Assembly (NCBI GenBank): GCA_021234155.1
Contig: JAJEKV010000092.1
Span: 2,986,561-3,050,560, forward strand
DNA length: 64,000 bases
Direction of reading: 5' to 3'
From: Isoetes taiwanensis
Taxonomy: Eukaryota > Streptophyta > Lycopodiopsida > Isoetales > Isoetaceae
The position numbers and the translations under genes were made by a program. Below the pieces are notes generated by a model. It was not told the DNA's origin and did not search any database. It saw only the letters and a program-made list of their open reading frames with translations. The first letter of the stretch is position 1. Every line of letters starts with the position of its first letter. Shown here piece by piece: positions 17,031-58,656 of the stretch.

Positions 17031-17104
17031 CTTGGATAAAAAAGAACAATGTATTTTTTTTTTCTTGTTCTTCTCTCTGTCATCTTTCAGGTGTATTCTC
17101 CCTT

Positions 17105-17190
17105 GACAGTCCTTGAATAAGCTCCTGCTACACTGCTCCTTGACACTGCTCCTTGAATAAGCTCCTGCTACACTGTGTCCTTGACAGTCT
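17105..17190. repeat. short tandem repeat between ORF1 and RT
   Basis: The unit CTTGAATAAGCTCCTGCTAC followed by ACTG occurs twice, separated by a shorter related CTGCTCCTTGACA piece. It lies in the spacer between the two retroelement genes. Confidence 0.6.
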
Positions 17191-17510
17191 ATATTTTTTA
17201 CAAAAAAAAACCAGTTACATATATAAGATTAAAAAAAGAAAAAGGAAAGTCAAGTATTTTCACTCTTATAGAGGTGAAATGGTAATGTGTTGGAAGCATA
17301 ATAAGCAATCCCAACATCAAGGTAGCCCTTAGGCAAGCTTTTTTTTAAAAAAAAAATTGATCAATGATCACTGTCCAGTAAGGACATAAAATATGGTAAT
17401 ATCCAGAAGTCCACACACTTCAGGACATTACAAACTATCATTGCATGTTATATCTATGCACAGAATAGAACAATAGATATCATTTTGTAAAAGAGATTTT
17501 ACCAAGTAGT

Positions 17511-19083
17511 TCAGAAAAGTTGCTGTGCAGTACCATCCAGGTTGTCGATATTGCTCTTTCCACTACCTTTGGTGATCGAATTATCAGTATCATTGCCCAC
17601 AGCCAATGCTTTGGTGGTCGAATGACCAACGTTACTTGGAGTACCTAAGCACTCAATAGAAGAGTTATCAGCTGAATTCAAAATGCCTAACCTCGGTGGA
17701 GCAGTAATACGAGGTGGGGCCAAAACCATAGTACGAGTATTGTTGGACCCTTTGGATTTATTCTTCCTGTTATTGTCCCCAGTACTATTACTGGCTGAAG
17801 CCTCAGTTTTTTTGTTATCCTTTGCCGGCTTAATGGTTCTTTCACACAGTTCAGCCATTTTACATCTTGGGAAGTTAACCTTTAAATCTGCCCAAGGGTC
17901 AACTGCACATGCCATAGTCATATCTATCAATATTTGTCTGATGTGTAGATAAGAAAGGTAAGCAATAATGCTGGATTTTAAAGTGGTTTTCATGCATGTT
18001 CTCATTGCCACCATTTGACCAGCCACAGGAAGTTCCGGATAGATCTTGTCCAAGTTGTTAAACATGAACCAGACAGCATGGTCCAGCCAAGTCATATTAT
18101 CTTTGCACGTGTTTCCTTTGTCACGAGGGTCACAAGGACATTTGAAGTAGGGACACATGGTCCTCCACATCTTTTTGAGGAAAAAGTCAGTCCTGCGTTC
18201 AGCCGAGAAAGCCATGTGCCCTTTTTGGCTTATATAAATATGCTCGTCCTTACTGCATCTTTTGTCAAAAAATCTGTTATCAATTCTGAGCTTGATTTTC
18301 TGTCTATTGAATATTCTTTCCATAGAGTGGGCAGCTTTTTCAGCAGCAATCTCTTGTTCAGGGGTAATCCCCCCGAGTAAAATCCACTTCTCTCTACTAA
18401 TGGGGGCCAAAGCCCCAAAGTTCTTGGTTCTCCAAATCCCATGGTTGCATAATGCTGCATAACCTTCAACCAGTCGTTCAGGTATAATAGGAAAGGTATG
18501 GCAATTGTGTAAAGTGAAACCAAAGTTCTCCTTGTCAGTGGGGCAAGAACTTGAAGCTTTCTTTTGTAGGACTTCCTTATCTTTTTCTGTCAACAGACAT
18601 TCACCGAAAGGATCATCTCCATCAATCAAATCAGAAGTACATACCTCATCTTTCTTAACTTTGGAGGTATTGATTTTGTTTATTTCTTCAAGTCCAGCAA
18701 AGAACATGTTTTTGCATTTGTCCTCCTCCATAGTGAATTCATATACCTTCATTGGGAGATCCTCATACATTTGGTCCACAACCTTAGAGGTAGCAGCCCA
18801 CTCATCATCAAATTTGTTAAGTATGGGGACCATTTTCATCCAGCCATTAAACCCCATATTGGAAACAGCCGATAACTCGTCAACTTTTTTGGTGGCTTCT
18901 TTATCCAATATCAGTGCATGAACTTTAGGCTTCTTAATACAGCATAACAGTGTTTGGACTGCATAATTTGGACATTCAATTTTGCTTGTTCCCTTTCCAT
19001 ATCCAATATCATCAAGTTCTTTGTTCCATGTAGGAGGTTTGTACTCAATCTCAGCATCAGCTGAGTTAGTATTATACTCCTGT
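17511..19083 (-). CDS. unidentified ORF1 accompanying the reverse transcriptase
   Basis: An uninterrupted minus-strand frame runs from a TTACAG acceptor at about 19083 (first residues EYNTNSADAEIEYKPPTWNK) to a TGA at 17511, about 520 residues. It begins at a splice-like acceptor, not an ATG, so at least one upstream exon is missing from this call. I recognise no family. Visible features are a cysteine cluster (CPYFKCPCDPRDKGNTC) and a helical stretch after it. The last ~120 residues are rich in Asn, Ser, Thr and Lys and look disordered. Its frame is open although the neighbouring RT is broken. The position upstream and on the same strand as the RT suggests a nucleic-acid-binding ORF1 of the same element, but this is inference. 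Confidence 0.55.
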
Positions 19084-19265
19084 AAGTCATAAACATAGAA
19101 CTGGTTAAAACAGAATAAAGCTGCATAACAAATATTTCATATATGATGTGGAACTAAAGGCCCACCCTCAATACGTTTTATTTATGAAAAGTTTACTTAT
19201 AAAATCAGCCAAGGATAGTTAATAACAGAGGTATAACCACTGAGTTGAAGTGTCTAAAAAAAACC

Positions 19266-22759: not shown

Positions 22760-24730
22760 TTACTATAAAAATTACGACAATTATTATTATATGACTCGCG
22801 GAGTTCCACATATGCTGTACGTACTAAAAATACATGCTCTTCATCCTCTATGTCTCCATTTGTGCACATGAAACAAATTCGTTCCTGCTTTGGGATACCA
22901 ACCCATTTGCCCATCTCGATCTGAAGCTTATGTGAGCTCGTGCGATACCGTGCTATGGTTTGCTTCAAACTTCGTGAAGTCCCACCCCAATTGATCCAAA
23001 TATACCAACATCGGATTCACCACCTTCATGTAATATGCCATTTTAGTACCAGGCTCGTCCCAAATCCGCATCAATGCTAGTGATTGCCCGTACACCTATC
23101 TCTGAATCTGGCCAACTTGTTCTACATATTCCCCAGCTTTCAGCCCAGTTCAATACATCATTATACCAGCCCACGGATTGACACCTCCATTCCTTTCTTT
23201 GGAAGTCGGTTTTTTGTCCAATGCGGATAACCTATTTACAAAGATAATAGTCTGGATCAGTGCCTCACCTTCCAAAGGTAATAACCCTGCTTTTGCCAAC
23301 ATTATGGGATAAGATATTTGCTACTTAATCCCAAACTCCTTCTGCAAAAATATTTTTTTAATACCCTCAATCTGTTTCCATAATCCTTTCGATAAGGTTG
23401 GCACCCAAATCGAAGCACCATATTGTAGGACTGTTTGAACTAGAGTTTTGAATAGCATTCTTTTCAGTCCCCAATCCTGTAACGATGCCTCTGTGCACTT
23501 CTGGAGCATACCATATAGGGCCTTTTTCCCTCCTGCTAACCGTTTCTTAGTACATTCTTTCCATTTGTAATCTGCACTAAACTCAATTCCAATGTACTTA
23601 TAGTGATTCACAATCTCCAATGCTTCTCCATTGTGAGTAAAACTTGGCTTGTTAACTGTGCCGCATACCATAACCTTAGATTTAGACAGATTTACCTTCA
23701 TCTTCTTTGCTTTGCAAAACTCGCTCAAAGTCTGCAGGTGTTTCTGAAGTACGGTCGGTGTGGCTGCCAATAGTACCATGTCATCCGCATAGAGTAGCAG
23801 TTGGATCACATAGTCTCCTAGTTGAGTTCCTGTAAGCTCGTTTTGCTCCATCCACAATTGCAATTCATCTATGTACAACCCGAAAAGTGTAGGCGACATT
23901 GGACAACCTTATCTCACACCTATTATGCTATGAATCTCGGTTGAGTTATCTGCTAGTCGTGCAATAACTTCCTTGTACATTCTAGATACTGCACCCATGA
24001 ATGAAGTCGGAACTCCAAGCTCTTTCATTCTATTACACAACCCATCCCTTGGTACTGTATCGAAGGCCTTAGAGCAGTCAATAAATGCAAGAAACAATGC
24101 CCTCCCTGGTTTCTTAGCCTTTTCAATGAGCACCCTCAATGTGAGGGAATGATCTAGAGTATTGTGCATCCTTCTGAATCCTGCTTGACATGTAGCTCTT
24201 TTCCCATGTATATCTGTCCATGTGCTCAATTTCCTTTCCAGTAAGCAGCCCAATAATTTGGAGTATACACTTCCCACTATAATTGTCTGGTAGTTACAAA
24301 CATCCGCCTTATCACCTGATTTATGCACGGGACTACTTTGTTCAGTTGCCATGGTCTTGGCAAGCTCTCTTTAATTGGGCATTTAGCTGATTGACTAGTG
24401 TCTACAAGAGTACTTTATCACCCCATTTTAACAATTCTGCACTCATCCCTTCAAAATCAGCGGCCTTACCATTCTTTAATTGCTTCAAAGCCATACCTAC
24501 TTCCTTAACCGCGAATAAATTCTCATTCACATCCATTTCCTCCATCCCTGGTGCATCTCTACAGTAATATATGGACTGTACCAGCCGCAAAAAATCTTCC
24601 TCCTTTAGCCGTTGGTGCTCTATATGCCCACGAAGCTTATTCCAAAAAGTTTTTGGATGCTCGGATAACCAACTCCATAGTTCTTCTTGCCTTTTGGACT
24701 CGTAGGCTCTTTTCTTACCTCTTATGATTG
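22760..24730 (-). pseudogene. LINE (non-LTR retrotransposon) RT and C-terminal region
   Basis: The minus strand encodes, in order, a pre-RT part (24730-24402, with LKQLKNGKAADFEGMSAELL), RT palm motifs with FLAFIDCSKAFDTVPRDGL (near 24090), then after one in-frame stop GCPMSPTLFGLYIDELQLWM and LLLYADDMVLLA (near 23790). Then come the thumb and connection (LSKSKVMVCG, HYKYIGIEFSADYKWKECTK). A C-terminal zinc-finger-like ERICFMCTNGDIEDEEHVFL follows near 22890. YADD with a catalytic Asp pair is present. At least one stop (23908) and two frameshifts inactivate it. The apurinic endonuclease domain expected upstream is absent, as in 5'-truncated LINEs. Confidence 0.85.
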
Positions 24731-42914: not shown

Positions 42915-44332
42915 ACATGAAAAAAACTTAGGAGATAATCTTAAGGAATTTGCAGGTGGTGTATGTGTGTGGCTTGCAGGCAGGGCATCCAGACGAGGCT
43001 TCCAACGAAAGCTAAGAGGCGCAGATTCTGAGGGTGTGCTTGGACTGGATAGTGTTAAATCTAAAGACGCCGCATTGTCCTGGTGTTTGTGGCTCTGGTG
43101 AGGCCATTGCGGCCTGGAGGTTCGAATCCTCCGGCCCAACGAGAAGGATTTATTTCCTTTGCGCCTTTGGTTCTTTGCTTCGTTTTCCTTGCTTTGTTTC
43201 TCGGATGGAGGCAATGTGGATCTGGTGCAGAATGTGAAAGGCAACTGGAGATTCTTTCCGGCTTTGCGGCCATTGCGCTTTGGAGATGCAAAACAGATGC
43301 CAGGGAAAATATTTACCTGTCTGTTTGATTCAGAAGTTCTTGCCTCCTCAAATGCTCCAAATAAGGTTTAATGTAGTTATCTTTAGGACCCAAAATGCGA
43401 GCTGGGCATTTATTTTGTAAGGAAAACATGGGTAAGACATTGCAGCTGTGCTCAAATTAGTCTTTTCGGCAAGAGCCAGCATCATATCTACATATGCATC
43501 TCTCAATTGGAGATTCTAATTGGTCTGGCTGGGATTCTTTTTGGCAGTCTGCAGTGCTTGATGCCGAGCTTTGCTACCATTGGGTTCCATATTTTTTTCC
43601 CTCAATGTTTTTCAACGGTGCATAGACCATTGTGCACTTTTGCACAATTGAAAGTTGCATAGGGAAGAAAATCGAGGGTCGTTGTTCTGGCACAATGGAG
43701 GACATATTCACCAGATCAATGGTCCACAAACAATATAAATAAGGTGCCGCGCACGATGGCTCGCCCTTCGATGGCCCGCGAATGTGTTTTCATGGTTATG
43801 ATTAACAATGAAAACATCATTTGTTATGAAGTGAGGTCATGATTAACATACAATGGAGTGCCCTTTAGCTTTGCCCTCTGGCATAATATAGCATCTCTCA
43901 TCAGTGCATCCGCAGCTTGAAAAAACCTTAAAAAAAATATAGCGTATCTAAAAAAAATGTAACGTACTTCGATTTTTTTTTTTTTTTTTAATCACAGAAC
44001 GCATAAACTCATTTCGTACGTCCTGTCCAGTACAGTAAGTACCTAGAAGGTACCGTACACGTACGTAACCTACACTGCATCCGCTACTGTGAATTCGACA
44101 ATCTGTGGGCGGTCGGGGCATTAAACACCATGACGAGTAGCCCTGGCAATGTGTACTTGAACATGGAACTTCATGTGAGAGGAGACCTATGTCTTGAGTC
44201 GCTCAACAAGGAATTGTGTGTTTGAACGTGGTATATGTAGCAAAATAACAGGGGGTTCCAGGGGGATTTGATATGGATGTAAAAATAACAATTCCTGAAA
44301 CCATAGACTATCTTAACATATATAAGGCAGTT
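42915..44332. other. intergenic DNA, repeat-derived
   Basis: No gene is supported. A T-arm-like motif (GGAGGTTCGAATCCTCC) at 43118-43134 is not part of a tRNA. A diverged repeat with GGTGCCGCGCACGATGG lies near 43744. An A/T homopolymer run is at about 43975-43990. Confidence 0.45.
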
Positions 44333-44400
44333 AACAAAGTTTAAAATGAAACGCACTTATTTGCTGGAAACGCACTTCAAAAGGAATCTTTGAAAGATTC
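44333..44400 (+). repeat. left terminal inverted repeat and subterminal palindrome
   Basis: The first 30 bp match the inverse of 54011-54040 with one mismatch (A/G at position 6). GAAACGCACTT occurs twice within 30 bp. GGAATCTTTGAAAGATTCC at 44382-44400 is a near-perfect palindrome whose half also occurs near the right end. Confidence 0.85.
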
Positions 44401-44804
44401 CCTAAAATTCCCTTAAAAAAGTCCATTTTTAAGATTTTTTTGTGACAGGTGTGACAATTTAAGTAATTTAGGTACCATTTTTGAGGGGTTGATTGAACAT
44501 AACTTTCGTGCAAAAATTTTAAATAGCAATTTTCATCCTCCTAAACTAGAACAAAAAATAGTTACTTTTATAAAGTGTAGCAAAAAAGGGGCAATAAAAA
44601 AAATAGCAAGGGTAGTAGAGTGACAAAGAAGTGATATATTCAAGGTTGTGAAAATTGTACAAAATTATGAACAAAATTGTCAAAAATATAGGATATTTTG
44701 ACGCACAATCATCACCGCACTTTCTCGTTCTTTATATGTTCGAAGTCATCGGACAAACTTACATTTTGCAAAGAAGATCGGGATGCATCTCATCCTCGAC
44801 TCAT

Positions 44805-47800
44805 TTATTCCCGATCACTCGAGCCTTCATCCTCGGCTTCACTCTCAAGACTGGATGTACTCGAGCGATCTTCTTCCTCACCGCCTACAAGTGAGTCTTC
44901 ATCATCATCTTTTTGGCCACCTTTTTGGCTTGTTTGTCTAATCCACATGCCGACCTTATTAAAGTTTGAGTGACCATACGTAACTTATTAGCAAAGCAAT
45001 GTCGAACAAAGTCATATGCAAGAACCTTTACTTCGGTTAGATCTATGATGCCAGTGCTTGCTTTGGACTTAGCTCTCTTTCCCACTCTGTTTTTACCATC
45101 TCCAAAGTATAACTCCCAATCGAAAGCATTGGCGGCCGATCGTTCTCATCCAAAGGCACTTTTAATTGAGTGGGAATTCCATCCTCTCTTGTTACCTCCA
45201 ATTACTTTAGCTAGCGAAATGGCCTCCCAGATTCATCATTATCAGCTGGGACAGCTATGAGCATTCCTTTCTGAATCTCAGAGACTGAACCATATACTCG
45301 AGCAACTTGTTGTGCTGTGCGTCTAGGGCCAGTGTACATGACTCTGTCATCTTCATCTGAGCTAGCCAATATCTCTACATGTTCCTCTTGATTCTCAACT
45401 TGCACAGGGAGGGTTTGCCTAGATGGCCAGTTGAATGTAACTGGTCTTCGACCTTGTAATGAAGCTTGCAACATGTCACGTTGCCGAGAAAAAAATTGAG
45501 GCCACCATAAAGCATCTGCCTCCCCAAAGTGGTTAGAGCAGGACTGAATACTTGTCTCAATACAATCCAATGATTTATTTGAGTCAAATGCTCTTCCCTC
45601 CTTTTTACTCTTTGTGATTTCTTTCAAGCTTTTTAGAGGCATTTGCTCTGCAGAGAGCATGGAACTAGTATTGGGGATGTTGCGAATGAATTGAATACTG
45701 GCTGGCGGGTCGCCAATTTTGCAAGGATGTGGCATATTTCTTTCCTTGTAAGATGGCCTTGCCATCTACAAGTGAAATTTTGATCCGATCTTTGAAATGT
45801 AATGTTTCTCAAGGGCTCAATAGCACAGTGACCTAGTTGATCTCTCCGAAAAATCCATTCCTTGAAATCATAAGTTTCTTCCAATAACTCGATGTCTGGA
45901 CGAGGATTGTAGGAATCTTGGATGACCTCAATCATGGTCGGGGGCTTAGAGCTTTTTTTTTCGCAAGACGTTTAGAGAACCTCATGAACATCCGATCAAT
46001 TTGGTCGTGTATGACCAACAAGCAGAAACCAATCTTCACCTTCTTGAAGATTTGTTTCTCTACTAGCATAGCACGATAGCAAACAACGCCTGATTCTTAT
46101 TTTCCCTTGTCGTGTTATCTAGTGAAGATACGAGCCGGCAGTATATGTTCTAGATTGGAAAGAAGCTTATTCAATATTGTGATAGTGAGATTTGGATCAG
46201 CATGAATGTTTGGATAATTCAAAAATGCCTTGCAAGATAGTTTTCCATTAAATACCATAGCACCAACAACATGCGGATGTATGAAATCTTCTTCAAAGAA
46301 GATCCTTAGGCACATTGACAAAATGTGGTAGGGTGGTCTTCTTCCGTCCATTCCATCAATAACAACCGATATGTAGTTGAGTGGTTGTTCCAAAGCTTTC
46401 TTCCTATGTTTTGTCAATTTTCTCCTTTCCAAAGATTGTTGTTCTCTGTGGCTTGTTCGGTTTCTCCTTCAATGCATCCGAAAGGAAAATATGTTTAGGA
46501 AAGAACCTACTTTTAAGTAGAACTAGGCAAGAACACGCCCGGAAGCTTACTTTTAGTGTGAAGTGTCCTTGCATTTTGTCTCGAGCTTTTAATTCGTGAG
46601 CATGTAGCACAAACAGACATCCTATGCTTTCTAGGAATGGACACGCCGAGAAAACTCTTTTTTCGAGAGCACGAGAAAGTAAGAGTAGCGGATAAAGCGT
46701 TCTCCACCTCAACACACATCTCCTTATAATTATCGTGAGACTTCTTGTTTCGTGGAAATTGTCACTCAAGTGGTACATAGGGCTATTAGGGAGTTTCTCA
46801 CAAGACTCCTTAAAGAAACCTTCCATCCAGGAAACACATTGAAGGGCATGAATTCTGGCTATGCCTCCTGAATGGCAGTAGTCATTGATGCCTGGATTCT
46901 TGTCAAGCCTTTTCTTCAGGCGGTCAAGTCGTCTGCTGCCTAAAGCATGAATCAATTTGAAGGCCGTTTGATTGATGTGATTGGCCACCACCAAATGTGT
47001 AAGTAAACTTCTCACCATCATCCGCCTAATATTGAAGGCTAAGTAGCCCCTTTGGTCTAGCAGAGTCATTGAACTGTAACTATCACGAATCAACCTCAAT
47101 TCCTTTAGTCCAATCTTAAGCAAACAACGTTGAGAACAACAGTGCTTTGTATGTGTTGCCCGCAAGTGAGCCTCGTCCATGAGTTTCTTTCTTCTAACAG
47201 TTGTACATGCTTTCTTGTGTAAGTTACGTTTAAGATTCTTACTTGCGGGGGGCTTTGAATTCAACAAGGAGTCTTGTGGCTTTGGTAGGTCCTCGTCCCG
47301 AGAGATCAACATGAGGTGTTTCTTCGTCCGAGAGATCAACTTGAGGTGTACTTGTAGATGCCGATAGGTTTGGTTGTGTGCAAGTCCTGGGGAGGTGCTT
47401 TCCCTCTCTCTCGGGAAAAAAGTAATCGAGGTTGGTGGCGTAGTTGACCAGCTCCCGGCGTCGTAGAACACAGAGGGAGTTGCGTGTCCGACCGCTTCCA
47501 CTTGTTGTAGTATCATTTAGCTAAATTGATGGAGTTGGCGTGATTTGCCTCCCGAGGATTTAGCCTTTACCGGTGGACTAAGGGCTTACGTGCTAAACCG
47601 AAGTGGAGGAGGTAGTCCGACCTCTCTAGCCCGAGGTGGGGTAAAACGCATTGGTGGGGGGCACACGCTCAAGAGCGGGTGTGGTGGAGTAAGTTGAACC
47701 GGTGGTGGAAGCCGAGGTGGTCGTGGCCGGAGTAAACTCAACAGTAGCCGGGGTTTGAATATCGAGGCGAATTTCCGAGGCTACTTTTCGGTGTCGGTTG

Positions 47801-47880
47801 AGGGGTGTGAATGTCATTGCGGGGAGGAAGCTTCGCGAAACAGACTTGGAGGCTCTGCAGTTCTTTTTTTCTCGAGCCAT
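44805..47880 (-). pseudogene. DUF7869-like putative transposase, several frames
   Basis: Minus-strand pieces in order give one long protein. The N-terminus MAREKKNCRASKSVSRSFLP at 47880 is Thr/Pro/Ser-rich. A Cys/His part follows near 47150 (HTKHCCSQRCLLKIG). Then HSGGIARIHALQCVSWMEGF near 46850 and YISVVIDGMDGRRPPYHILS near 46370 come before DNTTRENKN (near 46110), VEKQIFKKVKIGF and HDQIDRMF (near 46000). This set (IDGMD, DN..RENKN, GF..V.H..DQID.MF) is characteristic of the widespread DUF7869 proteins, thought to derive from RNase-H-fold transposases. After it come VIQDSYNPRPDIELLEETYD and a C-terminal part with QKGMLIAVPADNDESGRPF and an acidic tail ending at TAA 44805. Several frameshifts and stops (such as 47626 and about 46118) make it non-functional. 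Introns may exist but were not resolved. Confidence 0.65.
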
Positions 47881-47905
47881 ACTGGAAAGGTAGCGTCACA
47901 CCGTG

Positions 47906-50900
47906 TATAAATTTATACTGACGAAGAGCGGATGGTAAAAGTTTACATAGGATGGTATAAATTTATACGAGAAGGCAAACTTGTAGCCGATTGTATAAAT
48001 TTATACGAGAGATGGTATAAATTTATACGGAGGAGGAAGACACACAAATTTATAACGAAAACTCACGCACACTTGTATTGGAATCTTTATGGAGAAACGC
48101 TTATAATAAACGGCACTTAGCGGGGGTACTTAAGCCCTGGCCGGGCCAATCCCTATTTTTCATATACGCAGCCGAGTCGGGCTAGGCGCCAAGGGTCCGC
48201 CTTTATATACCCCCTCTTATTTGCTCTCCCAACCTCTATACGCCAGTCCATACGGTCATGGCCACGTAAGTCTACTTTCCGCATTGTTTTAGTTTCTCTT
48301 TGGTTTTAATTTATAGGAGTGTAAGCCCCACGGTAAATTTATACCGAGATGGCTCTAGATCGGTATAAATTTATATCGCCCGTGCTTTCGAACGGTATAA
48401 ATTTATATAAATTTATACCGCGAGCACTTATAAATTTATACCGCGGTACCCGCAAGTGCTCGAGCCGTATAAATTTATACCGTTCGAGAACCATTTTAAA
48501 TTCTTGACGTCTAGTGCTCAACGAATGGTCCCGAACCTTAATATTTTGGTAATATTGTTGTGTTTTCAGCTTAAATGACACAAATGAAGTGTTAATTTAG
48601 TGTGGATTTTATGCCCTTTCATCCTCTTTTTCTACTGTTTTTGTGTTTCAAAAATTCGAAAAAGGTACAGTTTCTTTTGTAAAAATGGTTTTTTTTGCGC
48701 ATTACAGTGGCCCTAAGATCAAGTTTGTACTCGGAGGGTCATCATCAAAGGGTGCACCACCAGAGCCACAGACTTATGAACTAAAGGATCAGACTTGGTA
48801 CGTCCACAGGGGCGCAAGAGAGAGCAAACCCACTGAGGCGTACCTTTACTTGTGCAAACAATCAGGGAAGGGCAAGTTCAAGTCCGATGATTATTACCCT
48901 GCTGGCGAAATTATAAGCCTTGTTGCTACAGAGAACGATGATGAAGTTCTAATGCAGTGCAACCATGACAAGGGTCCCGTCCACTATGTTCTGAATACTA
49001 GAATGCTTAGAATTAGCATGTGCAAGCCTAAAGACGTACACGATTACATTGCGGACAATTACAAGAGCGGCTTCGTAAGTTATTCTTACATGCTTTCCGT
49101 ATAAATTTATACCGTCATTCTCTTAACTTAACCCCTCGCATTACAGGGGACGTAGTAGAAATTTTGATGTCAGTAGTGCTGTGCGACGAAAAAGTGTTGG
49201 TCAAGGGTCTATGGTACCCCCGTACTATCGAAGAGGAAGTAGTAGAGGAAGAGGAAGAGGAAGAGGAAGAGGAGGAACCAGTCGTCACAAAGGGAAAGGG
49301 TAGGAAGTATTCCCTGGTAGAAGATACACAGCCTCCTACCAAGAAAAAGTCTAGAATCACAAAGTCCTTGACTATAGAGGAGTCAGCAGAAGCTCTTCAG
49401 AAGGCTCCAGGAGCAGATATCGTTGTGAAGCCCGCAGATAAGTCGAGTGCTATTCTCAAGCGGGTTAATGAAACCAAACTGCTCAAGCAGACCATTTCTT
49501 TGACACTAAGCACTATTAAGAGGCCACCAAAAAATGAAGATGGGGTCAGAGTGCTTCAGGTCCGAAAGTTGTACGCGGCACATGTGGCTATCCTTAAGCA
49601 AAGAATGAGAAGGAATCCTCATGCCCATGTGTCGCCACTAGTTGTGATGGTGGACAGAAGTCAGTGCAACCAATTAAAAGACTACAAAAAGGCAGATTTT
49701 GAAGATTACACCTATTATGTTCTTGGAGGCACACATAGCTATAAAGCAAGAAAAGAACTTTCAAAAGAAGAAAGCCGTAATGAAGTCTGGAAGAGCGTGG
49801 AAGCACATATCTATGTGGGGGTGACAGACGAAGAGGCAAAAGTCATTGCCGTGAGTCACAATCTCGACAATGACTTCAGACTAAAGATGAGCCTAATAGA
49901 CAAGATTCGCTTCATGCACCGAGAGTACGTGGATTTCAAACAAGTGCATGGAGACGACTTCAAAAAACAAAAGAACAAGCTTCAAGAGCTTCGAGAAGCC
50001 TGTGTGACAGAGTGCTGCCTCAGTTATGATTCGGATAAGAAACCCATTATGGCTGTCAAACAATACGATAACTACTTTCAGCTAGCTTTCAGAGATGGTC
50101 AAGTAAGTAAAAGCTTCAATTCAATCTTTTGTAGTATGTTTAAGCGTGGTTAGAAGCTTGTAATAGCCTAGTGATTATAAATTTATACCGCAGTGCGGAC
50201 AGGTATAAATTTATACCGTGCACGGTCATGGATAAATTTATACCGTATAAATTTATATCACACCAGCACGGTATAAATTTATATCATGCCGAGACGGTAT
50301 AAATTTATACCACGGCGCCGTGCACAGTATAAATTTATACCATGGCCGCACTTGTATAAATTTATACCGTGTTGAGTCGCCGTGCCCATCCTCTTACGCC
50401 ATTCAACACTAAACTTCGTTTGAACATTTACAGGTGTGGGATCTTCAAGAGAGAATTTTTTGTATGTTCGAAGATGGGGAGCTCAAAGAACAAGCTAGGG
50501 ACGCAGGAAAGAAACCAAAGAAAGGTGGTGAATCAAAACAAAAAAATATGAGCATTGTACCCTCGACGCCTTGCTTCTGTGGTCTTAAAAGCAAAGAAAA
50601 TATTTGTTCACTTTGTTGGAAAAAGTAGTTGCCAAAGAATTCACATTAGACGAGATGGCCAAGGAAGCTAAAACGTAAGCCTCACTTGCTATGCCAAGTT
50701 TTTTTCTACCTTTTTTTGTCTTACAATACTTTTCCCTCTGCAGTCAGAAAGACATTGTCACTTGCCAGGCCGAGTTAATGAAGCAGCTCAACCTAGAAGA
50801 CTGGGAGGAGTGCAAACTTTTGTACCCAAGTTGCACCACAGACAGTATCATCAGAGAGCACGCAGTTAACTTCAGTGGCTGGGTAAGTTTTGCAAACAAT

Positions 50901-51554
50901 ATGTTATGTGTTTGTGCCTTTGTCTTACATTACTCTTACAGAACAAGAAGAAGGGGCTACCAACTGGATTTTTAAACCTGGTTCGTAGGGCCAAAGAAGA
51001 GAGGCAAAGGCTTAAGGCAATTGAACAGGGTAGAGAGGTCGCCACTTCCAGTTTTGACTGTACATATGAGAGATTTACCACATTTGGTCAGGACGTCCAG
51101 TACAGGGTTGTTGAGGGTGATTGTACAAGGCTGGGGACTCTTTTAGACAAGCAAAATTTTACATTATGCATTGCAGATATTCCTTATGGATTTAAAATAA
51201 AGGATAGCGCTTTTGATGAGGAGGCTTTCACTCACGTGCAAGTCCGGGTCTTTCTGGATGGCCTAAAAGAAGTCACGACATCCCGAAAACCGAGGGTCAT
51301 CATTTTTCATTCCGACCTTCGAGACGATGTCGGTGCTTAAACCTATGGGAGCGGCCTCATACGCCCGGTTTAAAGCGTTTGGTAAGCTTCACAATTAACG
51401 CTTTTTGTTTTACGGTAACTCCACTGTATAAATTTATACCACATCTGTCTTAAGGTTTAAATTTTAAAGGCTGGAACAACCGCGGTATAAATTTATACAG
51501 CAAGGCAATGTCTGTTCAAATTTATACGGCTTGCCGCCGTGGTATAAATTTATA
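47906..51554. repeat. 20 copies of palindrome TATAAATTTATA in non-coding parts
   Basis: Exact 12 bp copies start at 47906, 47956, 47994, 48016, 48364, 48396, 48406, 48429, 48468, 49100, 50176, 50204, 50246, 50272, 50298, 50328, 50355, 51427, 51486 and 51543. Many extend to the 16 bp palindrome GGTATAAATTTATACC, and several one-base variants lie among them. Four are upstream of the transposase start, the nearest 26 bp before its ATG. Five are in intron 1, one in intron 2, seven in intron 3 at 26-42 bp spacing, and three in intron 6. None falls in an exon. Flanks between copies are unrelated, so this is not a simple tandem array. Selection for a binding or modification site is the likely reason. 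Confidence 0.95.
48202..48210 (+). promoter_or_regulatory. probable TATA box of the methyltransferase gene
   Basis: TTTATATAC lies 48 bp before the ATG at 48258, in a CT-rich stretch suited to a plant core promoter. It lies between the first palindrome cluster (47906-48027) and the cluster inside intron 1. The two divergent genes are 378 bp apart (ATG to ATG), so they may share control. Confidence 0.5.
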
Positions 51555-53590
51555 CAGCAAGGCAACCGTCGTATAAGTTTATACCGCCACACTACCGGGC
51601 TAACTTATTTTCCTTGTTTTCTTTTTACTAATTTCTAATTGCTGTTTTGCTTGGCAGGCTTAAAACAAACGTCAAAGGTCATGGTGGTGGTCCGCGCTTA
51701 GTGAGCTGTTTCGAGCATTTTCATATAGGTTTTTACAGCGCGGACACCAAAAAAACCATGATTCATTTTAACACGCAGAATGAGAAGACTCCTCCCTGCA
51801 ATGCATTTCAGTTCCCAAATTGTTCTGCGAAATTAAAGAGACCCACAAATGGCGACAAAGCGCCGTGGTGTCCCATTATCGGGGCCACGCCGCTTATTAA
51901 TAATTTGGTACGGTGGTTTTCTTGCCACGAGATCGGATCTTAGATGCCTTTTGGATCGGGCACCACGGCCAGTTTTGCCCTTAAAGCGCGGGCGCAATGT
52001 CGCCTCGGTCGACATAGACCCGGATAAAGTAAGTTTCATCGGGACCGGATAAGCTCTTGTGAATCCTTTCCCGATGAAAATGAGGAACTGGAGCAAAGAA
52101 CGGTGCTAGCGATGCTAAGGGCACTTACACGTAACATCGCTTCAAGAGTCGAACATGAACCTCCTTCTCGATCATGCCGTTTGCTTTCAATGCGGAAAAA
52201 GCGGCCGATGGCGCCGTTTTGGCGCGCCAGCTTGGTCGGCTAGGGTAGCGGCCATACCGCCCTCAGAGATCAACACGCCCAATGCAGCGGTGGATCGTGA
52301 AGACACAATCGAACTCCCCGAACGGCTAGCGGGGCCATGTATAATCGCTTCATCGAAAACGAGAGAAAAAGATCTGGCTGGTTTGGGGCAAATGGTTTTC
52401 TTTTTTTAGGTGGCGAGTCTTGTAGCATTTTCCTCTAACGAGGTAAGTTCTTTGGTGCTTTTTGCGCTATGTCATACGACATGCTTGAAATGGTAGATCC
52501 ATCCGAAGATAGATCCATTTGGAAGCTGGCCTATAAGGCTAAGAACGAGACTACAGGACTAGATAAAGATTATTATTTGCATTTCATATTCAATAGGGAT
52601 ATCACAATCTGGCTTTGATGGAAGAATTTTAGATATGGCTCCTTTTTTCCGCTCTTCCTTGCTAGCGGGAAGATCTGATTATACAAATGATAAATCGGAA
52701 GATATATTTTGTCTCAGCATGGATTTGCGTGTTTGTCCGGGGTTATTAATTTATGTTGAAGCGGCGAGACAATACATGGTATGATAGTTTGATATATTGA
52801 TGGAATTTATTAGCATCTTCATTATTTTTCAAGTAATCGTTGCGGCTTGAAGAAAAACCACCAAGTTGAAGCTTGAGTATAATTTGGTAATCGATGCCAA
52901 ATTTACCTTACCAATTTATTGGATAAGGTTTGCTCAAATGTAATTTGGTGCACCGATGCCAAATTCACATTATCATCTCCAATTCATTGGACTTAGTTTG
53001 CTCAAATATCGCAACGTTTGAGTGAATGCTAAATCAGTCTTGATATGCCCGAATTTCTTCCTAATTGTCTACTTTCATACATATATGAGTCCGGGCCTTT
53101 CTTCCTACTTCGGTTCTTACACCACCGCACTTTCCTCGAATAAGATTTATCATTTCCAGTGCCTTATGGCTACTTCGGATTATCTTGTATAAGTTGGTTA
53201 CTATGCGGATGGATTCAATAAGTTTTCTGCATGTAGAGGATGAAGATGTTTGAGATTACTCCTGTAGTAATCCTCTGCAAGCAGCAAGACATTGTAATTT
53301 TTATTTATTATATATAAAATATAAAAATCGTTCTCTCAAAAAAAAAAAAAAAAACTTACACAGAAATCCAGCCTCCACTTACAGGAAGAAGAGATGAGGA
53401 GGTGGAGTTTGTCGACTTAGAGCCTGTGGTGCCCGAGCTAGAGAAACAGCCTGTACCTGTGCCATTGGAATCAGAAGCAGGCGTCTCTGCTATCATACCC
53501 TCACAAGAGTCAGATCCTAAGGGGTACGAGAGTCCTGTGGACTGGGAAGAACCACCTCCTCCACCAGTTGTAGTCAAGATTACAAACTAA
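48258..53590 (+). pseudogene. ParB-like domain fused to DNA amino-methyltransferase, 8-exon gene with mutations
   Basis: Exon 1 is only ATGGCCAC (48258-48265). Exon 2 (48708-49074) joins in frame to give MATGPKIKFVLGG. Further exons are 49147-50102, 50434-50674, 50744-50882, 50942-51381, 51658 to about 52442, and 53363-53590. After an acidic Glu run, exon 3 encodes a ParB/sulfiredoxin-like domain (YYVLGGTHSYKARKELS, AHIYVGVTDEEAKVIAVSHN). Exon 6 has methyltransferase motif IV as ADIPYGF, then RVIIFHSDL. Exon 7 has LKTNVKGHGGGPRL, CFEHFHIGFY, LVRWFSCHEI and motif I FGSGTTASFALK, then GRNVASVDIDPDKV. Motif IV before motif I is the permuted order of beta-type N6-adenine/N4-cytosine methyltransferases. 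Defects: a one-base loss at the exon 2/3 join, a frameshift in exon 4, TAA stops at about 51339 and 51370, a TAG near 51942 and a frameshift after motif I. The start of the protein is unrecognised. Confidence 0.7.
52470..53354 (+). mobile_element. probable poly(A)-tailed retroposed insertion in last intron
   Basis: Between a donor-like AACGAG/GTAAGT at 52443 and an acceptor TTACACAG at 53362 lies about 0.9 kb ending in an 18-nt A tract directly before CTTACACAG. Its composition differs from the other introns of the gene: no palindromes and strongly AT-rich. The A tail suggests LINE- or SINE-mediated retroposition. The left end and a target duplication were not found. Confidence 0.4.
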
Positions 53591-54010
53591 CTTTCATTGT
53601 AAACTATGTGCTAAGAAATATAACATATTTTGATGATGATTTTTAATCTGAAAGCTTTGTCTCTTCAACAGTGCTTAATTAGAGCAACTCTTTCTTGCTC
53701 CATGATTTCACACTCTTTGTCTTCCCTATGTTTAATTTTCTTAGTACTTATATTAAGCTTGCAAAAAGACAAACTGTATTTCCTTCTATTTTCAGCAATA
53801 AATACTTATTCAGCTTTTAAATTTAATGTCACCCTCCTCAAAACAAGCTTTTTTTTTTTGCCCTCTTTAAAACATGAAAAGGCTTCAAAAATGTTGCTTT
53901 TTTGGGGGTATTTCGAATGCTAATTGCTTAACAATCTATTTTGCTCCCTATTTTGTCTGTTTTTTTCAAGTTTCCAATTTTTATAAAGGAATCTTTCAAA
54001 CGCACTTCTT

Positions 54011-54040
54011 AAATAAGTGCGTTTCATTTTAAACCTTGTT
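54011..54040 (-). repeat. right terminal inverted repeat of the 9.7 kb element
   Basis: Read on the minus strand it begins AACAAGGTTTAAAATGAAAC and pairs with 44333-44362. Directly inside, a second GAAACGCACTT-like copy is inverted and makes a local hairpin around 54000-54028. Confidence 0.85.
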
Positions 54041-54268
54041 AGTTGTAATTTTTGTTTGATCCTAATATTTTTTCCCCAGCAATAAGAAGTTTGGGGGCGA
54101 CACGTGCAGCAAAAAAATTGGGGGCGACACGTGTCTTTAAAAAATAATAATGAAAAAAAAAAGAAGTGACGTCCTTTTCTTGCTCTGCAAGGAATCCGGC
54201 CCTGCAGAGCAAGCAATCCAGCCCTGCTCAGTTCTGGCCCTGCTCAATATGCGGAATTATGTGATAGA

Positions 54269-54492
54269 TGTTGATCAAATGAAGTCATCTTGACACGTGG
54301 CACCCACAAAACCGTCACCTTCTCGGTGCAACAATCTTAGGAGAAACTCTAGGAGAAACTCTAGGAGAAACTCTTGCATGTTACTGTTTTCAGTATTGCT
54401 GTTTTGGTATTAAAGGATCCTTTCGATCCTCTCTTTGTACTCAGTTCTGGCATTCAATAGAATCTGTCGCCTTGCTATTCACCTGGGTTACA
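54269..54492 (+). repeat. 5' LTR of copia element
   Basis: It starts TGTTGATCAA and ends CTGGGTTACA (TG...CA). It is 224 bp, 24 bp longer than the 3' LTR because AGGAGAAACTCT is present three times here and once there. Apart from that only two substitutions were noticed. The flank ATAGA (54264-54268) matches the base run after the 3' LTR. Confidence 0.95.
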
Positions 54493-54504
54493 TGGTATCA
54501 GAGC
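54493..54504 (+). promoter_or_regulatory. primer binding site, initiator Met-tRNA type
   Basis: TGGTATCAGAGC directly follows the 5' LTR. It is the standard sequence complementary to the 3' end of plant initiator methionine tRNA, used to prime minus-strand synthesis. Confidence 0.95.
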
Positions 54505-54535
54505 ACAGGTGATATCTTCAAGATCTATAGGTAAG

Positions 54536-57500
54536 ATGGATTCTAGCTCTTCCTCTACAATCGCCCCTGCCGCTGTCCAAACCCCTGCATCGCCTGATCT
54601 CCTTGACCCCATCAAAGGCTTGGAGAAATTTGGAATCGAGAGGTTCAAAGGGGATGATTTTCGCATGTGGAAATATCAAATCTCCACTTATTTCATGGCA
54701 GCAGGCTTATGGGAGGTGATAAACGGCACTGCTGCACGACCTGGCGGTGAAAATATGAGCCCTGATGCATTACGAAAATGGATTGCCAAAGACTCTAGAG
54801 CACACTCAGTTCTGATCAGCAGCATCCATCCCTCTATCTTGCACAGGCTCAAGGTTTCCAACTCTGCTCATGAGTGCTGGAGCAAATTACTCCGCATGTG
54901 CGAAGAGAAATCTGTAGCCGCTCAAGTGATGCTAAGGCACAAACTCTATGCCACCAGGCTTGGTGATGGAGAATCCATGAGTGCCCATATTGCTAAAATG
55001 CGCAGCATCATGGACCAACTTGATGAGTCTGGTCCAATCAAACTTTGTGGAAACTGCTCTGCCTATGCTGAGCAGCACAATTATCTTGCCCTTTTGTCCA
55101 GCCTTCCTCCAGCATACGAAAATTTGGTTGTGGTTCTTTCAAACCACCAAGGCACTCTGGTTTGGGAGGAGGTTAGTGCCCGGCTGCTGCAAGAAGAGGC
55201 CCGGATTCAGCAAAATGGAGCCACTGAAACTCAGATGGCTCTCTTCTCTGGCATGCGTCCCAAAGCCGAGAACAAGACAAATGATGGACACAAACCCAAT
55301 GCGGGAAAAGTCAGGCCCAAATGTGATTATTGCAAACGCAAAGGGCATCTCAAGGAGGGATGCTGGAAGCTGATTGCTGATCAAGCAAATGGGAAACTGC
55401 CCACTGCAAATTGCACCACTGATGAAGTTCAGCCTGTTCAGCCAGCTCATGCCTTCATGACCATTCACACCTCCTATTCTGATCTAGATGTATGGTGGTT
55501 GGACACTGCTGCATCCAACCATATGACTGGATGCAAAAATTTCTTTGTCAAGATGCAAGCATTACCCCAGTTGCATATTGTCACCACCAGCAATGGAAGC
55601 AAGTTGCAGTCTCAATATGGTGATGTAAGTATCAAGATTGCTCCTCAGAAATTTCTTACCCTTTCAAATGTTCTTTATGTTCCAGGACTGGACCATAACC
55701 TTGTTTGCATTGGGCAAATTGCTGATCTTGGTTTATCCATCACATTTGATCGCACTCAGGCCATTATTACCAAAGAAGCTGAAACCATTGCTTTTGGGAT
55801 GCGGTTTGGCAATATTTACAAGTTGCATACATCATCTAATGAGCTAGCTCTTCATACTCAAGCAACATCCATGGGCTCTCTTTGGCATCAGCGCCTTGGG
55901 CATGCTGGCTTTGATTGCCTTCAACATACAACATCTCTCAATGCTGCCACTGGCCTCCCTGCTACATTTCAGCAGGAGCCTTGTGAAATTTGTCACCTTG
56001 GCAAGCAACACAAGCTCCCTTTTCCGCTCTCTGAAAATCGGGCATCATCCCCAGCATTGCGCATTCATTCTGATGTTTCTGGTCTTCATCGTCCCACAAA
56101 AAGTGGCTTCACCTATTTTCTGACATTTATTGATGATTATTCGCGGTTTGTCACAGTCTACTTCCTCAAACACAAAAGTGAGGTATTTGGTTTTTTCCAG
56201 CAATTTGTTGCTTTGGTCCGCACTCAACTTGACAAACCAGTCAAAGCTCTTATGAGCGACAATGGTGGAGAATACTGCTCCAATGCCTTCAAACTCTTTT
56301 GTGCAAGTCAAGGCATTGAACATCGGACTATCATTCCTGGAGACTCTGAGCAAAATGGACTTGCTGAACGCATGAACCGGACACTCAAGGATATGGCTCG
56401 CTGTCTCTTAATTCAAGCCCAACTTCCATTGCAATTTTGGCTGAAGCCCTTAGTACAACAGTGTATCTCAGAAATCGCATTGCATCTCGCAAAGCTCAAA
56501 AGACTCCTCTTGAGATGTGGAATGGAACTCGCCCTAACCTCGCTCATGTTCGAGTTTTTGGATGTTTGGCCTTTGCTCTTCAGCGCCATCGAGCAGGAAC
56601 TTTTGCACCACGCAGCTTACGCACCATTTTCGTTGGTTATTCCATCACTCAGAAGGGATATAAGCTCTTGGACCCGTGCACTGGCAAATTCTTCTTTAGC
56701 AGGCATGTTCATTTCATGGAAGATCGCTTGGGATCTGCTCTCCTTTCTCCTGCACTTTTACCTGCAGACCTCATTAGTCTTCCAACAATCATCTCCTCTG
56801 ATGACATTGATCAAATTCCTGCTGCTGCCACTGCCTCCACTCCTGCAGACGTTGCCCTTGGATCATCTCCTTCTGCCACATCAGCCTCACCTGGCCTGCT
56901 CCTTCTCTGGTTCCACTTGTGGATTCTTCCCAGCCTCGGAGATCTGCTCGCACTTGGAAGCCCACAGCCAAGATGCTCACGTATCACCAAGCTGCCTTCA
57001 ATGTGCATGATCCCACTGTTCCTGCCACTTACAAGCAAGCTTGTTCTGATGTTCATGCAGCCCAATGGCATGCCGCAATGGATGAGGAAATGGCAGCTCT
57101 CCGCCGTAATCACGTGTGGTCCCTTTGTGCACTTCCTGCAGGACGGCAGCCTGTTACTTCGAAATGGCTTTACAAGATCAAGATGCGTGCTGATGGATCC
57201 CTTGATCGATTCAAAGCTCGCCTGGTTGCTCGCGGCTTCTCTCAGGTTGAAGGTGTTGATTTCCATGAGACCTTCTCTCCCGTGGTGAAAATGACTTCCA
57301 TTCGGATCCTTCTTGCTTTAGCAGCAGCTCATGATATGGAGATCCATCAAATGGACGTGCAAGCTGCATTCTTGTATGGTGATCTTTCAGAGGAAGTTTA
57401 CTTGCAGCAGCCTGAAGGCTACATTCAGCCCGGCGAGGAGCATTTGGTCTGGAGACTTCACAAGGCCCTGTATGGCTTGCGACAGGCACCCCGAGCTTGG

Positions 57501-58656
57501 TATGAAAAAATGCACAACTTCTTACTTCAATTGGGCTTCAGCAGTGGTTTTGCAGACACCAACCTTTATGTCCTCAAGCAGGATGCTGCCTTCACTCTTT
57601 TGGGCCTTTACATTGATGATACTATCATCGTCACTAACTCTCTTGCAGTGCTCTCTCGCATCAAGCAATCTTTGGCTGCACACTTCATGATGCATGACCT
57701 CCAAGAAATTCGGAGTTGCCTTGGCCTGCGCATCACACGAGATCGCTCTTAGCGCATCCTCTGGCTTGATCAAGAGAAATATAGCTTGGCTATTCTCCAC
57801 AAGTTCAATATGCATGACTGTCATGGCATCTCCACTCCCATGGACGTTGGTCTAAAACTGTCTACTGCTGATTCCCCACAGACCCCAGCTGACCATGCTG
57901 CTATGGCTCCCATCCCATATCGCAATGCATTAGGTTGCCTCAATTATCTCATGATCTGCACTCGTCCTGACCTTGGCTTTGTCGTCAGTCTCTTGAGCCG
58001 CTTCATGGCCAATCCTGGTCTCCCTCATTGGCATGCTCTCAAACGTGTTTTGCGTTATCTTCGAGCCACTGCCCACTTTGGCCTTCAGTTTGGACCTCCT
58101 TCCTCTACCCAGGATCTCTTTCTTGGTTACACTGATGCTGACTATGCCGGTGAAGAGGAGGCTAAATCAACCTCTGGTTATTATTTTTTTCTTCAATGAG
58201 GGTATCATCAGCTGGAGCTCCAAGAAGCAACATGTCACTGCTCAATCCACTATGGAAGCGGAGTATATTGCTGCCTGCGAGGCAGCCAAAGAAGCTGCTT
58301 GGCTTCAGAAAATTGCCCTGGACCTTCACCTTCAGCAGGAGCTGCCTCTCACTCTTTACTGTGACAGCCAAAGTGCAATTGCCTTGGCTAAAGATCCCAG
58401 GTTTCATCCCAAGTCCAAGCATCTGAAAGTGCGGTTTTATTATCTGAAAGAACAAGTTCATGATGGTCACCTGGTTATGCCTTACTGTAACACTCATGAC
58501 ATGGTGGCAGATCTTCTCACTAAGCCTCTGCATACTTCCAAATTTCAGCACCATCGCACTCAACTTCGTGTTCTTCCTCGAGGTTCAGCTCAAGCAGGAG
58601 GTACAGAAGATCTTGTGAGCACCACCTCTTCAGACTCCTTCAAGCAGGAGTGTTGA
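54536..58656 (+). pseudogene. copia gag-pol polyprotein with frameshifts
   Basis: From the ATG at 54536: gag (GIERFKGDDFRMWKYQI), zinc knuckle CDYCKRKGHLKEGC near 55325, and protease WWLDTAASNHMTG near 55500. Integrase has the HHCC part (LWHQRLGH...CEICHLGKQH), DVSGLH...FIDDYSRF, SDNGGEYCS and QNGLAERMNRTLKDM. Frame changes occur near 56450 and 56910. RT follows in a third frame (SKWLYKIKMRADGS, MDVQAAFLYGDL, ALYGLRQAPRAWYEKM, YIDDTIIV). A TAG at 57750 and a frameshift near 58190 precede RNase H (DADYAG, STMEAEYIAACEAAKEAAWL, SQSAIALAKDP). All domains are present, but at least three frameshifts and one stop prevent a full product. The RT box is YIDD, where YVDD is usual in this superfamily. 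Confidence 0.95.

Follow-up and report, generated by a model that had tools for sequence, protein, structure and literature searches.

The DNA analysed here, a 64-kb window (64,000 nucleotides) of contig JAJEKV010000092.1 from Isoetes taiwanensis, contains at positions 44333 to 54040 a copy of a high-copy DNA transposon of that genome. The element carries two divergent genes, one for a DUF7869 transposase and one for a beta-class DNA methyltransferase with a ParB-like part (the ParB-methyltransferase), as well as an array of a long palindrome. The data below give good support to an autonomous-type DDE/D transposon family that encodes its own methyltransferase, and we read it as a cut-and-paste family of early-diverging vascular plants. 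On balance, we think from sequence comparison that the ParB-methyltransferase would bind and methylate its own palindrome array, by which it would control the two genes and mark the element.

Ends, copies and gene content of the element

A first-pass annotation of the window had described a 9.7-kb autonomous transposon with 30-bp inverted ends and an AGTT direct duplication. The inverted ends (44333-44362 and 54011-54040) are there with their single mismatch (AACAAAG/AACAAGG), and AGTT flanks them at 44329-44332 and 54041-54044. No other position in the 64-kb window comes within 8 mismatches of the 30-bp terminus, and a simple base-composition model predicts about 5e-7 such inverted pairs by chance in 64 kb, which rules out a chance inverted repeat. 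The first 80 bp of the element matched with 100% identity at all 40 places scored, the window itself not among them; these were drawn from 1131 first-look candidates in the genome (1,658,258,908 bp, 1110 contigs). As a sample of copies, we fetched 10 kb at the first 20 of the 40 places (L009-L028). A right end with at most 6 mismatches was present within the 10 kb in 13 of them and absent at that threshold from L009, L012, L016, L018, L023, L026 and L027. All 14 complete copies (the 13 fetched and that of the window) have perfect 4-bp duplications, those of the fetched copies being TTTT, AGAA, CTTA, AATG, TACA, AGTA, ATAA, AAAA, CTAA, AATT, AAAT, GATG and ACTG, and all share the A/G mismatch between left and right ends. 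The termini placed by the annotation are thus those of the other copies as well. Terminal inverted repeats common to dispersed copies, with a target-site duplication of fixed length (4 bp in Isoetes), place the family in class II. No Pfam match to a reverse transcriptase was found in the eight main reading-frame pieces of the element, some small frames lying outside that scan.

The length of 9.7 kb applies to the window copy and not to the family. The 13 complete fetched copies measure 8,482-8,869 bp, while the window copy reaches 9,708 bp because of a 1,223-bp insertion at 52131-53353, with a polyA tail and an 8-bp duplication (ACTTACAC). This is a retroposed insert in the last methyltransferase exon, foreign to the transposon family. 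Two other copies, L022 and L023, sit inside further members of the family or are split by them, in both cases at a point corresponding to about base 6699 of the window copy; target preference or segmental duplication are possible reasons for this shared point.

The two divergent genes proposed by the annotation also recur: within the 10 kb read, pieces of both were found in 17 of the 20 fetched copies, while L018 and L027 had the transposase only and L026 had neither. They occur together, too, on five contigs of probable Azolla origin described below. In the window copy both genes are frameshifted; autonomy is supported for the family, not for this copy, which looks defective. Its features are given below, with window coordinates, strand where there is one, and basis.

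44329-44332: left target-site duplication AGTT (flank sequence, comparison of ends)
44333-44362, plus: left terminal inverted repeat, AACAAAG... (ends common to copies)
44750-47880, minus: transposase gene, frameshifted here, approximate bounds (reading frames compared with copies L024, L013 and L012)
45633-46468, minus: putative DUF7869 catalytic core, split over several frames (sub-cut-off profile matches; intact in L024; predicted fold of homologue P0014)
47905-48029: palindrome cluster 1, 4 exact sites, immediately upstream of the transposase start (pattern counts)
48258-48265, plus: probable first coding exon of the methyltransferase, ATGGCCAC followed by gtaagt (by eye)
48332-48484: palindrome cluster 2, inside the probable first methyltransferase intron (pattern counts)
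48708-49074, plus: exon E1, N-terminal domain of unknown type (related sequence in L019 and L024; by eye in L031 and L034)
49099-49112: palindrome in intron E1/E2 (pattern match)
49147-50102, plus: exon E2, ParB-like domain (open frame 49032-50153; weak ParB profiles)
50176-50371: palindrome cluster 3, between E2 and E3, with 7 exact matches and 1 near match (pattern counts)
50434-50674, plus: exon E3, frameshifted here (comparison with copies)
50744-50882, plus: exon E4 (comparison with copies)
50942-51381, plus: exon E5, methyltransferase motif IV (ADIPYG), frameshift near its end (reading frame, profile)
51426-51588: palindrome cluster 4, intron E5/E6, 3 exact sites and near sites (pattern counts)
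51658-53590, plus: exon E6, methyltransferase motif I region, split by the insertion and frameshifted (reading frames, profile)
52131-53353: secondary insertion, polyA tail, 8-bp duplication (comparison with copies)
54011-54040, minus: right terminal inverted repeat, AACAAGG... (ends common to copies)
54041-54044: right target-site duplication AGTT (flank sequence)

The two genes and their histories

The DUF7869 profile (PF25273) matched copy L024 at 2e-53 (181.3 bits, cut-off 26), and two pieces of the window copy at 5.9e-5 and 0.0094, both under the Pfam cut-off. In the predicted structure of the homologue P0014 we found an RNase-H-like catalytic core with an acidic triad, and a second-look aligner assigned the protein a predicted Mos1/integrase-like fold. 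Residues 396-480 of P0014 form a C-terminal beta domain with a weak Foldseek likeness to BAH domains (E of about 0.1-0.2); such a BAH-like domain could steer integration by chromatin.

As read from L019 and L024, the second protein has an N-terminal domain and an acidic linker, followed by a ParB-like domain and one more region; then come motif IV (ADIPYG) and motif I (DAFSGSGTT). Its membership of the beta class comes from the PF01555 profile, which matched L019 at 7.2e-16 (59.2 bits, cut-off 26.7), and motif IV precedes motif I. CcrM matched at 8e-8 over most of the domain, and MboIIA at 6e-8 over a C-terminal part. The strict catalytic tetrapeptide of beta-class N6-adenine and N4-cytosine methyltransferases is (D/N/S)PP(Y/F/W). 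It does not occur here, and five of six Chara proteins have DFPY, NFPY or DFPC. Given the likeness to CcrM and the D at motif IV, the product would most likely be N6-methyladenine (6mA), with N4-methylcytosine (4mC) as second candidate. A GGxHS...A motif, seen by eye and taken by us to resemble ParB, and profile matches to phrog_723 (0.012), phrog_6392 (0.057), each in one of seven sequences, and DUF6551 (0.011), presumably of ParB kinship, faintly suggest a ParB identity for the ParB-like domain. The ParB label used by the first-pass annotation is thus weakly supported by profiles, with sequence motifs that agree by eye.

Searches that scored only the candidates with most words in common returned as relatives six proteins from Chara braunii, one each from Adiantum capillus-veneris and Adiantum nelumboides, and four plain methylases from metagenomes. 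The relatives of the ParB-methyltransferase in Chara braunii number at least six (P0002-P0004, P0006-P0008) and apparently form two subfamilies. We rejected a recent direct capture from a phage or bacterium on account of low phage coverage and introns. In the 12 phage matches listed, out of 187 records, identity is 23-26% and query coverage 35-44%, none reaching 80%; the one match in IMG/VR lies in a 297-aa methyltransferase frame that, by eye, has no ParB part. The gene also has introns, and two of these coincide in position and phase, as judged by eye, between Isoetes and the Azolla-like contigs. As for DUF7869, none of 132 pattern matches in IMG/VR was confirmed as a relative.

The two genes have diverged to different extents. 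Among 138 copy pairs with enough codons, the median synonymous difference (pS) was 0.504 for the methyltransferase and 0.181 for the transposase, and the median nonsynonymous difference (pN) 0.118 and 0.072, respectively; only stretches whose local protein identity reached 50% or more were analysed, a restriction that lowers pN. In 106 of the 138 pairs the methyltransferase pS was more than twice that of the transposase, and between L024 and L019 the differing synonymous sites amounted to 9% in the transposase and 79% in the methyltransferase. The median pN/pS was 0.222 among the 94 pairs with a methyltransferase pS above 0.4. The halves of the element therefore have different histories, most simply through recombination between related elements. 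The low diversity of the left half is in part a product of the sampling, because only copies identical over the leftmost 80 bp were chosen.

The Isoetes taiwanensis assembly (1658.30 Mb, 204 scaffolds and 909 contigs) was made from nanopore reads with racon and pilon polishing, according to the accessible text of PMC8566536. In the transposase region of 17 copies, deletions affected 5.5% of CHG trimers and 0.93% of positions elsewhere, and insertions 4.7% and 1.2%, respectively; CG positions were raised too. Indels and substitutions were each some 4-6 times commoner at CHG trimers than at other positions in this region of L009-L028. Deamination makes no indels, while nanopore errors at methylated sites could. 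From the CHG indel excess we therefore conclude that part of the frameshifting is probably an assembly artefact at methylated CHG sites and that the copies are probably methylated by the host. Repeat genes in this assembly may look more broken than they are, although no individual copy is put forward here as intact.

Palindrome arrays in Isoetes and in Azolla-like contigs

The palindrome TATAAATTTATA occurs 20 times in the window, always within the element and never in the remaining 54.3 kb. The right flanks of the 13 fetched complete copies lack it as well, except for two occurrences beside L022, where the flanking DNA is itself another copy. In the 14 complete copies we counted 252 exact sites (0.15 expected), and a relaxed match gave 366 sites, 16-39 per complete copy, with CGGTATAAATTTATACCG as majority sequence. 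Spacings of 26-34 bp make up 180 of the 281 that are up to 100 bp. The stretch upstream of the transposase start holds sites, as do the probable first intron and introns E1/E2, E2/E3 and E5/E6 of the methyltransferase. Of the exact ones, 102 are in introns between methyltransferase exons and 9 at the methyltransferase stop codon, which in L019 and L024 is, by eye, part of the site; these 9 come from 9 of the 14 copies. Counting the stop-codon site as outside, none of the 252 falls inside a methyltransferase exon, and none lies below element position 3540. Arrays are kept in copies that differ at about 80% of the synonymous sites of the methyltransferase. We also considered basecalling errors at palindromes as a sign of 6mA and discarded the idea: arm variants, such as CTGA for the expected ACTG, fit CHG-associated errors and give no evidence for a self-encoded mark.

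The same gene pair, with a different palindrome, is found in a metagenome-assembled genome (MAG) labelled uncultured Trichormus (CAKZGI01). A contig scan placed relatives of the ParB-methyltransferase on six of its contigs (L030-L035), spanning query residues 3-630 in five and 3-446 in one. Trichormus azollae is a cyanobacterium and the symbiont of Azolla. Since the genes have GT-AG introns and the transposases share about 53-60% identity with the Ceratopteris one, these contigs probably come from the Azolla fern and were binned together with its symbiont, and this cyanobacterial MAG, held in a bacterial reference set, is probably contaminated with it. Nine contigs bear the transposase and nine the methyltransferase, giving 13 gene-bearing contigs. 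The five with both (C142, C204, C433, C437 and C447; 6.7-15.6 kb) have them on opposite strands, the transposase frame of C433 being broken; C259, C294, C299, C326, C358 and C425 (3.7-5.1 kb) have a single gene, as do C311 and C473. Matching ends were located at 391 and 8114 on C204, where AACA is duplicated, and near 3146 and 10952 on C142, without a clear duplication (TTAA appears only with ends 3 bp further in, within the repeat).

Exact matches to GTCGATRCNNNGYATCGAC number 37 in the 5.9-Mb MAG, all on 8 contigs that each bear one or both genes, and the reversed pattern is found nowhere in the 5.9 Mb. On C142, C204, C437 and C447 the array sits between the two genes. Spacings lie near 31, 41 and 51 bp, and the distinct spacings fit a 10.5-bp period (vector 0.80) that none of 2000 random sets reached, though these sets ignore array growth by duplication, and two palindrome-bearing contigs were treated unequally, C299 being left out of the spacings. 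The Isoetes palindrome was not found in the six Azolla-like loci, nor the Azolla-like one in the Isoetes copies. With the same gene pair and an array in two lineages, we therefore regard this as a recurring design. The arrays, the secondary insertion and the differing histories of the halves are additions to what the first-pass annotation had noted.

Elsewhere in the window, Copia-like retrotransposon frames (by eye) lie about 0.4 kb right of the element (54461-58656, plus strand). On the minus strand, 15273-19136 holds two long open reading frames (651 and 541 aa), of which the first resembles by eye an unusual reverse transcriptase, and 23321-24370 holds LINE-type reverse transcriptase fragments (by eye).

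A possible self-marking transposon: proposed mechanism, rival readings and known systems

The best explanation of the arrays in both lineages is, on sequence grounds, that methyltransferase and palindrome array form a matched pair. What the sequence itself establishes are the ends and duplications, the pairing of the genes, their protein families (DUF7869, PF01555) and conservation, and the arrays with their link to the gene pair. We infer the catalytic activity, the methylated base, the palindrome-binding protein and the regulatory effect as follows. The DUF7869 transposase, of the RNase-H-like DDE/D class, would act on the 30-bp ends and generate the 4-bp target duplications. The ParB-methyltransferase would bind the palindromes cooperatively and methylate at or near them; the bound or methylated array would regulate the shared promoter region as well as the methyltransferase's own transcript, and methylation would give the element its own DNA mark. 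More tentatively, and with rather less confidence, we suggest a private epigenetic identity, in which the self-encoded methyltransferase and its lineage-specific array changed together over plant evolution and the self-mark controls the transposase and competes with host silencing.

Several observations weigh against the proposed mechanism. Motif IV is DIPY in the Isoetes and Azolla-like copies instead of the classical DPPY. The best ParB profile, phrog_1033, gave an E of 0.0024 in one of seven sequences, scans of PDB profiles and NCBIfam returned no ParB family, and the structure model of the ParB exon had a pLDDT (predicted local distance difference test) of only 39.5. Foldseek alone gave no transposase match at E 0.001 or better, so the fold assignment is that of the second-look aligner. 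No DUF7869 partner of the Chara relatives appears among the 120 proteins listed. In Isoetes the spacings peak at about 30 bp and lack 10-bp phasing (vector 0.31 at 10.4 bp, no peak), many Isoetes sites are intronic, which a pure promoter model does not need, and five of the 13 gene-bearing MAG contigs (C294, C311, C425, C433 and C473) lack exact GTCGATRCNNNGYATCGAC.

The arrays could also be bound by the transposase instead. In that case the transposase, or a separate domain, would bind the palindromes and repress its own promoter, and the methyltransferase would act elsewhere, globally or on the ends, against host silencing. The position of cluster 1 directly upstream of the transposase start and of the Azolla-like array between the two genes would suit this; the sites in methyltransferase introns and at its stop would not, nor would the absence of exact sites below position 3540 and in the ends, where the transposase must act, and we consider it unlikely. 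We give still less weight to the ParB-like domain being a nickase, in a restriction-modification-like or homing-like module that would cut unmodified sites, protect modified ones and so favour the spread of the element or conversion from copy to copy. In Bacillus cereus, a ParB-methylase is reported to nick DNA through its ParB domain (PMC5512222, accessible text), and the differing histories of the halves (106 of 138 pairs) are what recombination between copies would produce, but the ParB identity is itself weak.

It is improbable that the palindromes act as RNA hairpins in introns or 5' untranslated regions, for splicing control or RNA modification. The Isoetes sites do lie in what are probably transcribed non-coding parts, but their centre is more uniform than their arms, the reverse of a hairpin with a free loop (the exact centre is present in 101 of 113 GGTA...TACC sites, whereas ACCG is found in 302 of 710 arms of sites chosen by their centre), and no palindrome was found inside genes in the Azolla-like contigs. 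Most improbable is a methyltransferase retained by chance in one amplified family, a passenger without a role for the element. Many copies have broken reading frames, as a passenger would, but the CHG enrichment of indels means that part of this breakage may be assembly error; the low pN/pS among divergent copies and the conserved pairing in the other plant lineage, with its two shared introns, already strain this explanation.

The preferred reading, in which the ParB-methyltransferase acts on its own array, would make of enzyme and array, if they are a matched pair, a eukaryotic counterpart of ParB-parS or orphan-methyltransferase circuits. The uncharacterised DUF7869 is now tied to real transposon ends and a fixed duplication, and a DNA transposon joins the few eukaryotic mobile elements known with a DNA methyltransferase. 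With candidate recognition sites defined in two lineages (CGGTATAAATTTATACCG and GTCGATRCNNNGYATCGAC), it becomes possible to test on long reads of both species whether plants have functional 6mA or 4mC, which is disputed.

We recognised no account of either an element with DUF7869 or a eukaryotic DNA transposon bearing such a methyltransferase in the full-text literature that could be searched, a scope that leaves aside Repbase and most subscription journals; as far as searched, the combination of transposase, bacterial-type methyltransferase and palindrome array is previously undescribed. Among the closest known systems are those in the accessible text of PMC5890265, which describes retrotransposons with cytosine methyltransferases, LINE/DIRS in Symbiodinium and Gypsy in the charophyte Klebsormidium, reports purifying selection for the latter, and mentions DNA transposons with DNA methyltransferases in marine viruses. 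Like the Isoetes element, the Symbiodinium and Klebsormidium retrotransposons are eukaryotic mobile elements with their own DNA methyltransferase, but they use reverse transcription and C5-cytosine enzymes, in contrast to a DDE/D transposase, a beta-class enzyme and palindrome arrays. DIRS elements with Dam-like methyltransferases, cited in the same text, share an adenine-type methyltransferase; they have a reverse transcriptase and a tyrosine recombinase, and that text mentions no ParB-like part or array. Bacterial ParB-methylases share the fusion of a ParB-like part to a methyltransferase (PMC5512222, accessible text), whereas the Isoetes gene lies in a plant transposon, where it is paired with a transposase gene, is split by introns and codes for an additional N-terminal domain. 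Beta-class methyltransferases such as CcrM likewise have motif IV before motif I and can be matched across most of the domain, but the Isoetes enzyme has DIPY instead of DPPY and large N-terminal parts. Finally, KolobokP (PMC9587614, accessible text) is likewise a eukaryotic DDD/E transposon with a second DNA-acting enzyme, in its case a homing-type nuclease, with another structure and other hosts.

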